From Meiothermus cerbereus DSM 11376 (GTDB lineage: Bacteria; Deinococcota; Deinococci; Deinococcales; Thermaceae): DNA of 64,000 nucleotides. Location: the NCBI RefSeq assembly GCF_000620065.1, contig NZ_JHVI01000004.1, positions 62,001 to 126,000 on the forward strand, written 5' to 3'. Both the position numbers and the translations under genes were made by a program. Below the pieces are notes generated by a model, which saw nothing but the letters and a program-made list of their open reading frames with translations, searched no databases and was not told the origin of the DNA. Within the stretch, counting starts at the first letter, position 1. Each line of letters starts with the position of its first letter. Below are positions 26,889 through 28,897 of this stretch, piece after piece.

Positions 26889-27920
26889 CTAACCAAGCAA
26901 GGTGCTGAAGTCGTTGAAATCGGCGCGAAAACCGCCGGGTACGCCTTTGGCGATCACCGAGACCGCATCGTGGGAGTGCAGGCTCTCGAGGTGCGAGCAG
27001 GCCACCTGGAAGTCGTGGATTCGCCTGTCGGCCTCGAGCTGCTCGTAAAGCAGCCGGGCGGCATCCTCCACAAACTTAACGTAGGCCCCGTTCAACTCGG
27101 CAAAGGCCTGTTCGTCCTCACGTTTGACCATGACTTGGGTCTCGGTCTTGAGGGCTTCGCGGGCGTGCTGAATCAGGTCTTCCAGGTGCAGTGAGGTATC
27201 GGGGGCCACCTCCACCTTGATGCGGGCCTTGGAGCGCTGGCTGTGGGGAATGGCATACACCCCGCGGGTGTCGCGGGCGTGCTCGGCCAGCTCGGCGGAG
27301 CAGGGGCAGGCCGAGGAGTAGACGAAGTCCAGCTCTACATAGCGCCTTAACGTTCCGTCTGCTTCGATGGCGGCCTCGTAGCTGCCGCTGTAGTACTGGT
27401 AGCCTTCCAGGCCCGAGCGCAGGGCCGATACCAGCATGGGGTAGTTGAAGGCTACCTTAACCCGGGCGGTCAGGCTGCCCAGCTCGCGGCGGTAGTCTTC
27501 TACTACCTGGGCCAGGGTATCCAGGCTGAAAACCGCGTCTTTGTGGGCATAAAAGGTGCGGATAATCCGGCTCATGTTGATGCCCTTGAGGTTGGCCTGG
27601 AGGGAAACCGTACCGGTAACGCGGGCCTCGAGGGTCAGGGCTTCACCTCCAGGAGTAGCAAACCTGAGCGGCAGCCGGAAGCCCGAGATGCCTACCTGCT
27701 GAATAGGAACGTTGGCCCCTTCGACCGAGTCCACCGTCTCGGTCATGTCGGGCAGGCTGGCTTTGTAGGCGGGGTCGGGCTGAAATTGATGGTCGTAATG
27801 GCGAGTGATGATGGGTTCCGCACCGTCGGTATTGCGAAACAGGTAGGCTTTTTTGCCGCCGTTTTGGTCGAGTTTGGATGGGGGAGTATCGAGGATTTGC
27901 TTATCGTCGTAGCTAAGCAA
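26889..27920 (-). CDS. folE2: GTP cyclohydrolase FolE2 (type IB)
   Basis: Converts GTP to 7,8-dihydroneopterin triphosphate, the entry to folate and queuosine-type compounds; the type IB enzyme uses metals other than zinc and often replaces FolE under zinc limitation. The metal Cys lies in [16 protein letters not shown]; other marks are [29 protein letters not shown] and the N-terminal [12 protein letters not shown] region. About 343 residues from a TTG at 27920, which has AAGGAG 6 nt upstream; a TTG at 27971 has no such site. A pseudoknot-like leader lies upstream. Confidence 0.92.
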
Positions 27921-27973
27921 GGGTATCTCCTTTTTCGTCAGCAACCTCGAGCAGTCTGACGCGTGTTTCAAGC

Positions 27974-28026
27974 GAAGGGAACCTCTTGAGTAGACCCTGA
28001 ACCACTTCCCTTCATCCCGGTTCAGG
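27974..28026 (-). promoter_or_regulatory. Pseudoknot-forming leader of folE2 (candidate riboswitch)
   Basis: On the minus strand CCTGAACC (28026-28019) pairs with GGTTCAGG (28003-27996), an 8-bp stem with a 15-nt loop. That loop contains GAAGGGAA (28013-28006), a perfect complement of TTCCCTTC (27981-27974) just downstream. Together they make a compact H-type pseudoknot of about 53 nt, some 53 nt before the folE2 start codon. It does not match a motif of any riboswitch class I know. Confidence 0.5.
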
Positions 28027-28146
28027 AACCAATGTCAGTCTAGAACAACTGCATGGCTATAGCATGCCACCTTATACATAAACTGAACGTAACCTAGACA
28101 CTTGTTTTTCCTGGGGTGTGTATGATGGGGCGCGAACCACAATAGT

Positions 28147-28172
28147 AAAATCCCCTCCTGTGGGAGGGTTTT
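28147..28172 (-). terminator. Intrinsic terminator of the Nudix-SDR pair
   Basis: CCCTCC-TGTG-GGAGGG flanked by AAAA and TTTT, so it can terminate in either direction. It lies 12 nt after the SDR gene and isolates it from folE2. Confidence 0.75.
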
Positions 28173-28183
28173 AGATTTCCGTG

Positions 28184-28897
28184 CTAGAGATTCCATCCGC
28201 CCGCAACCTCCACAACCTGACCGGTGAGGTAGCCGCTATTTTCTTCCACAAAAAACAGAACCGCTCGAGCCAGCTCCTCCAGACTGGCCAAGCGACCCAT
28301 GGGAATCTTGTCTAGGGGCTTGGAGACGGAGTTTTCGGCTACTCCCGGTGAGACCACGTTTACCGTTACGCCTTTGGGCGCGAGGCGCTGGGCCAGCGAC
28401 TTGCTGTAGATCACCAGGCCGGTTTTAGCGATAACATAGGGCGTAATATCCGGGCGGGCCAGCAGGTTCTGCGCCCCGGCGAACCCGATGTTAACCACCC
28501 GCCCATAGCCGCTCTGGCTCAGGTAGGGGAGGGCAGCCTGGGTTAGGTAAAAGGGCGCATTGAGGTTGGAATCGATTATCCGGCGCCATTCTTTGGGGGA
28601 GACCTCGTCAATGGGTTTTTTTAGGTAGTCGCCCACGTTGTTAACCAGTACCTGCAGGCCCCCAAGCTGCTCGACCACCGCAGCGATGAGTGCCCGGGCT
28701 TCGTGCTCCTGCGTCACGTCGGCTTTTACCTTGATGGCCTGAACCCCATGCTGCTCGGCTTCCTGACGGGTTTGTTCGGCCTCGAGGGCGCTGGTGTGGT
28801 AGTGCACGGCCACATCAAAGCCCCTCTGGGCCAGCGCCAGCACGATGGCCCGCCCAATCCCCCTGGCCGAGCCGGTCACCAGGGCCACTTTGTTCAT
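28184..28897 (-). CDS. Short-chain dehydrogenase/reductase lacking the usual catalytic Ser
   Basis: A 237-residue SDR oxidoreductase. TGSARGIG (residues 8-15) binds NADP(H), NNVGDY is the NNAG-type motif, N111 and the Y154-x3-K158 pair are present. The position that normally holds the catalytic Ser reads F139 in VVNIGFAGAQNLL, and the spacing to Tyr is two residues longer. The NxxxAxxQxLL pattern recalls pteridine reductases, where that Ser is also replaced. The ATG at 28897 overlaps the Nudix stop (ATGA), so the pair is coupled. Being 0.26 kb from folE2 makes a pterin substrate possible but unproven. Confidence 0.85.
   Translation of the reverse strand: MNKVALVTGSARGIGRAIVLALAQRGFDVAVHYHTSALEAEQTRQEAEQHGVQAIKVKADVTQEHEARALIAAVVEQLGGLQVLVNNVGDYLKKPIDEVSPKEWRRIIDSNLNAPFYLTQAALPYLSQSGYGRVVNIGFAGAQNLLARPDITPYVIAKTGLVIYSKSLAQRLAPKGVTVNVVSPGVAENSVSKPLDKIPMGRLASLEELARAVLFFVEENSGYLTGQVVEVAGGWNL

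Follow-up and report, generated by a model that had tools for sequence, protein, structure and literature searches.

A conserved pseudoknot and an invariant-loop hairpin form a candidate cis-regulatory RNA in the folE2 leader of Meiothermus

The preQ1-I, preQ1-II and SAM-II riboswitches are compact H-type pseudoknots located near the ribosome-binding site (RBS) of a metabolic gene; the 3' strand of their second stem overlaps or abuts the Shine-Dalgarno (SD) sequence, and invariant bases in their loops contact the ligand. In the THF-II riboswitch, the RBS forms the right arm of stem P1, and an asymmetric internal loop separates P1 from P2 (PMC6800512, PMC9881143). All 86 THF-II members in the 2019 paper are from Rhizobiales or metagenomes and precede folE (PMC6800512). 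Here we analyzed a 64,000-nt stretch of DNA from Meiothermus cerbereus DSM 11376 (the window), in which a leader of about 150 nt precedes folE2. None of the papers in the library searched joins folE2 and Meiothermus.

All features described here lie on the minus strand. The folE2 gene (26889 to 27920) encodes a type I GTP cyclohydrolase FolE2 of 343 aa (PF02649, 238 bits; NF010200, 292.7 bits with a cut-off of 215). Both its TTG start codon (27918 to 27920) and the SD, AAGGAG (27927 to 27932), are conserved. A longer TTG open reading frame (26889 to 27971) was rejected as a coding explanation of the region, its frame being unconserved upstream and interrupted by stop codons in two relatives; a gene starting at 27971 is also unlikely in that it would contain the SD and the hairpin H3 discussed below. 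The next gene upstream, tmpR (28184 to 28894), encodes a TmpR-type bifunctional dihydropteridine/dihydrofolate reductase (SDR; NF012208, 390 bits, cut-off 325), and the end of this gene can be seen ahead of folE2 in most relatives. A terminator-like hairpin (28153 to 28168) lies between tmpR and the leader.

The leader transcript presumably starts at a promoter-like block, GTTACGTTCA...TATAAG (28071 to 28093), kept in 15 of the 15 leaders whose contig reaches that far; transcription is expected to begin near 28064. Within the genus the block reads GTTACGTTyA...TATAAGgTGGCAT and is strongly conserved; it has no sigma-70 -35 element or match to the sigma-70 consensus, and an operator could lie within it. 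Hairpin H1 (28036 to 28051), 5' of the pseudoknot, has 4 bp here and 5-6 covarying bp in relatives, and is deleted or strongly reduced in two genomes (G004 and G014).

The first-pass annotation, made from the letters of the window, had described an 8-bp stem with a 15-nt loop, eight bases of which pair perfectly just downstream. Its coordinates and lengths proved exact on the minus strand, where the H-type pseudoknot runs from 28026 to 27974 in the order CCTGAACC-GGGAT-GAAGGGAA-GT-GGTTCAGG-(14 nt)-TTCCCTTC. Stem S1 (8 bp) is composed of the 5' strand CCUGAACC (= CCTGAACC; 28019 to 28026) and the 3' strand GGUUCAGG (= GGTTCAGG; 27996 to 28003), which close the 15-nt hairpin loop (28018-28004). 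Within that loop, the 5' strand of stem S2, GAAGGGAA (28013-28006), is perfectly complementary over 8 bp to the downstream 3' strand UUCCCUUC (= TTCCCTTC; 27981-27974). The connecting loops are L1 (5 nt, 28014 to 28018), L2 (2 nt, 28004 to 28005), and L3 (14 nt, 27982 to 27995).

Taken from one sequence alone, a single 8+8-bp pseudoknot is weakly surprising and could be due to chance. Neither strand of the window contains a second 8+8 pseudoknot with this arrangement; however, 0.17 per strand are expected under a first-order Markov model and the region's nested folding is no better than that of shuffled sequences (z = -0.34), so that one sequence is unconvincing. By a crude estimate, stability of the pseudoknot is marginal and close to that of the nested ensemble.

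Comparison with relatives settled the matter. The folE2 gene is present in 15 of 17 other genomes of the genus and in three genomes of another family of the order. We aligned 16 same-genus leaders, including that of the window, from the promoter-like block to the TTG start. The covariation in both stems that the first-pass annotation had suggested looking for is borne out in these leaders: 90.6% of the cells of S1 are paired and seven of its eight pairs show double changes; for S2 the figures are 99.2% and three of eight (for example, G-C to C-G in G002 and G003, an inner pair that is either A-U or G-C, and A-U to G-C in G005). In simulations that preserve the tree and the number of substitutions per column, none of 2000 runs reached the observed pairing for S1, S2, or H3, and the same three helices ranked as the top conserved ones in an unbiased screen of positions -205 to +90. 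Among single pairs the outcome differed: an R-scape-like test of all pairs with a tree null, in which 16 sequences are too few for power, gave no significant structural pair (best E = 1.25, rank 2 of 11325). The comparative evidence for the pseudoknot is that of the helix-level tests.

The geometry is retained along with the pairing. L1 and L2 measure 5 and 2 nt in all 16 leaders, with L1 varying in sequence, and L3 ranges from about 8 to 14 nt among relatives with no sequence conservation; in most relatives S1 is lengthened at its outer end to 11-14 bp, in many cases with a bulge, leaving an L3 of about 8-10 nt. Near-invariant unpaired bases were found in none of L1, L2, and L3 across the 16 leaders, although the lengths of L1 and L2 are kept. 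The loop of S1 pairs downstream and both stems show compensatory change, as in the H-type class. Because S1, S2, and their spacers are maintained through compensatory changes in 16 genomes of the genus, we regard the conserved pseudoknot of the folE2 leader as confirmed on comparative grounds. A covariance model of the whole leader gave one match per genome, always before folE2, in 16 of 16 genomes, and no strong match elsewhere among 111 genomes of the phylum.

The most conserved unpaired bases reside in a second element that falls outside the interval covered by the first-pass annotation (27974-28026). Hairpin H3 (27936 to 27961), identified by covariation and covariance-model search, lies between the pseudoknot and the SD and ends 3-4 nt before the latter. 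It has a 6-bp stem (7-10 bp in relatives) and a 14-nt loop, ACUGCUCGAGGUUG (27942 to 27955), whose consensus ACUnCnCGAGGUUG is invariant in all 19 sequences from the two families, one base being absent (13 nt) in two relatives. Its stem covaries, with 98.4% of cells paired and double changes at five of seven pairs, and the FolE2 proteins of the two families sharing the loop are merely 70-73% identical. An H3 covariance model returned one strong match per genome, only before folE2, in 16 of 16 same-genus genomes (that of the window included) and in 3 of 3 from the other family; among the 111 phylum genomes no strong match lay away from a folE2 leader. Weak matches in G000 and G020 were discarded as lying inside or among other genes.

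Outside the phylum, H3 is absent from the nearest 80 named folE2 loci, mainly of Armatimonadetes and Verrucomicrobia at 53-67% identity. The model produced seven matches at E <= 0.01 in 201 Armatimonadetes genomes (the phylum of locus L058). Of these we read two: the first falls within a mutS-like gene and the second in a frame that has nothing to do with folE2, a result that also shows the E-values of so short a model to be optimistic. In the three other-family leaders that carry H3, no pseudoknot was recognized by eye, three sequences being too few for a test. These leaders (L017, L018, and L019) have a small stem, of the type GAACC...GAGGUUC, that encloses the SD 3' of H3, and their SD may be sequestered in a different manner.

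Genomic context bears on the signal that the leader might respond to. FolE2 is the sole GTP cyclohydrolase I here: among the genomes compared, PF01227 (FolE) is absent wherever PF02649 is present, and FolE occurs in the other families and in both genomes of the genus that lack folE2. Those two same-genus genomes (G001 and G017) carry FolE in place of FolE2 and have no leader, a difference that is a gene replacement within the genus. A zinc-sparing folE2 would accompany a zinc-dependent folE; no FolE stands alongside in the genomes compared, so FolE2 is not a second or backup enzyme, and the zinc status put forward as a signal in the first-pass annotation is not supported. The deazapurine ligand (preQ1) that it also proposed fared no better. 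Full-length QueC (PF06508) was not found in the genus, where the only matches cover about 60 residues inside ORFs of about 610 aa, and the FolE2 product probably feeds folate rather than queuosine synthesis. Judged on QueC, de novo synthesis of preQ1 would be missing in the genus. With FolE2 as the sole GTP cyclohydrolase I, the TmpR-type reductase gene adjoining upstream, and QueC missing, feedback on translation by a folate or pterin is favored over a deazapurine signal, and a response to folate would amount to product feedback.

A conserved structured RNA 5' of a metabolic gene is a general feature of riboswitches and is seen here, and folE2 is probably controlled by its own leader RNA. Our tentative reading, to which we give more weight than to any alternative though somewhat less than even odds, is that the leader of about 150 nt acts in cis on FolE2 translation, with H3 as a folate or pterin sensor in a negative feedback. 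A reduced folate or pterin, either the end product or an intermediate of the pathway, would bind the H3 loop; the bound hairpin would become rigid and impede loading of the 30S subunit at the SD 3-4 nt downstream, which would lower FolE2 synthesis. Here we infer the ligand identity, the on/off direction, and the coupling between pseudoknot and H3. The pseudoknot would act as scaffold or platform, holding the 5' portion of the leader in a fold clear of H3 and the SD. This division of labor, with H3 as the recognition site, is probable from the alignment because the pseudoknot loops vary while the unpaired bases of H3 are invariant; the pseudoknot may act as a scaffold, as a timing device, or as insulation of the SD. 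Its coupling to H3 is not visible in folding predictions, since at 37 C the predicted SD accessibility hardly shifts when the pseudoknot forms, from 0.38 to 0.44. The size of H3, about 28 nt, is smaller than that of the known folate aptamers THF-I and THF-II and counts against a folate sensor.

The invariant loop of H3 could equally be read by a protein. FolE2 itself, or another RNA-binding protein, would then repress translation from H3 and the pseudoknot would be structural, an explanation we hold to be rather unlikely even though H3 resembles an operator in being a short hairpin with an invariant loop and a free stem sequence, beside the SD of one gene. No candidate protein was identified, the fully covarying pseudoknot would be left without an evident role, and FolE2 is not known to bind RNA. 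A constitutive role, in which the structured 5' region shields the mRNA or keeps the ribosome site open and senses no signal, would suit the stable, covarying stems of S1 and H3, the variable sequence of S1, and the failure to find a conserved, mutually exclusive fold; it is nonetheless unlikely, as it explains neither the invariance of the 14-nt H3 loop across families with a varying stem nor the strict link to a single gene.

The remaining explanations place the activity in the pseudoknot. The first-pass annotation had viewed it as riboswitch-like, of the preQ1 and SAM-II size class, and of this proposal the folate or pterin signal stays plausible whereas the pseudoknot as aptamer is not supported, given that the near-invariant bases are in H3 instead of its loops. 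An aptamer of that class whose expression platform includes H3 would fit the strictly kept H-type geometry and the covariation of both stems. We consider it distinctly unlikely: besides the variable loops, the lack of QueC, and the absence of an Rfam match, about 40 nt separate the end of the pseudoknot from the SD further downstream, S2 has no conserved alternative partner, and H3 persists in three genomes without a recognizable pseudoknot. Very improbable is an anti-SD switch, in which pairing of UUCCCUUC with the S1 loop would give the pseudoknot (ON) and pairing with the SD AAGGAG the OFF state. The 3' strand of S2 is partly complementary to the SD in all species (-3.9 to -6.9 kcal/mol for this duplex against -9.0 to -12.4 for S2), yet unconstrained folding pairs the two appreciably in only two of 16 species (G016 and G006) and provides other partners elsewhere, and mean SD accessibility changes little. 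With an alternative partner that is inconsistent across species and not conserved, we rejected this switch.

Some Opitutae and Armatimonadetes have a different hairpin in their folE2 leaders, CGG-UUAUCGUC(A/C)C-CCG, with the loop UUAUCGUCmC and a compensating stem. It is present at 15 of 77 folE2 loci (among them L058, L059, L060, L061, L063, L065, L069, L073, L080, L096, and L097), within the 130 bases that precede position 1501, where the match starts, and once per genome in all six genomes tested; Rfam offered no match to it. At eight loci AAAAACGA closely precedes a start codon, by a few bases, and every one of them carries this hairpin; the UCGU of its loop could pair with the ACGA of AAAAACGA in a preQ1-I-like layout over the start codon. 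As these leaders carry a hairpin other than H3, control of folE2 at the RNA level may have evolved more than once.

The folE2 leader is a well-supported regulatory RNA that has no name so far; its gene encodes the enzyme through which folate synthesis is entered, and the thermophiles concerned rely on FolE2 alone. Were folate the signal, it would be a further, very small, independent RNA solution for the same cofactor; were a protein bound, a new regulator of folate synthesis would come to light. In either case the leader is a compact target whose mechanism is readily testable.

Regarding known systems, the first-pass annotation had recognized no familiar riboswitch, in agreement with our searches of all Rfam 15 families by cmscan. 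For the folE motif (THF-II) no hit appeared on the leader at thresholds up to E=5-10, nor on 13 loci at E=5, and the THF-I, preQ1, and SAM-II covariance models gave no match. Compared with preQ1-I, preQ1-II, and SAM-II, the leader differs in the distance of S2 from the SD and in its variable loops. Operator hairpins bound by proteins share the short stem, the invariant loop adjoining the SD, and the single target gene; the folE2 leader adds a covarying pseudoknot and has no known protein partner. THF-I shares folate sensing (proposed for the leader), control of folate genes, and the presence of a pseudoknot, but is built around a three-way junction. THF-II matches the leader in position and target, being a small leader RNA directly 5' of a GTP cyclohydrolase I gene, at the RBS, with conserved unpaired bases and reduced pterins as ligands of the known system (PMC6800512, PMC9881143). 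In the folE2 leader, however, the SD is outside H3, so the RBS is not in a P1-type arm, the conserved bases are in an apical loop, a pseudoknot lies upstream, and the gene is folE2; two defining features of THF-II, the RBS within the aptamer arm and a covariance-model match, are lacking. The leader is most fittingly treated as a new cis-regulatory RNA candidate, absent from Rfam. It is possible, though doubtful, that it represents a new folate/pterin riboswitch class unrelated to THF-I and THF-II, whose minimal aptamer would be a 28-nt hairpin (loop ACUnCnCGAGGUUG) located at the folE2 SD and, in one genus, helped by the H-type pseudoknot upstream of it.
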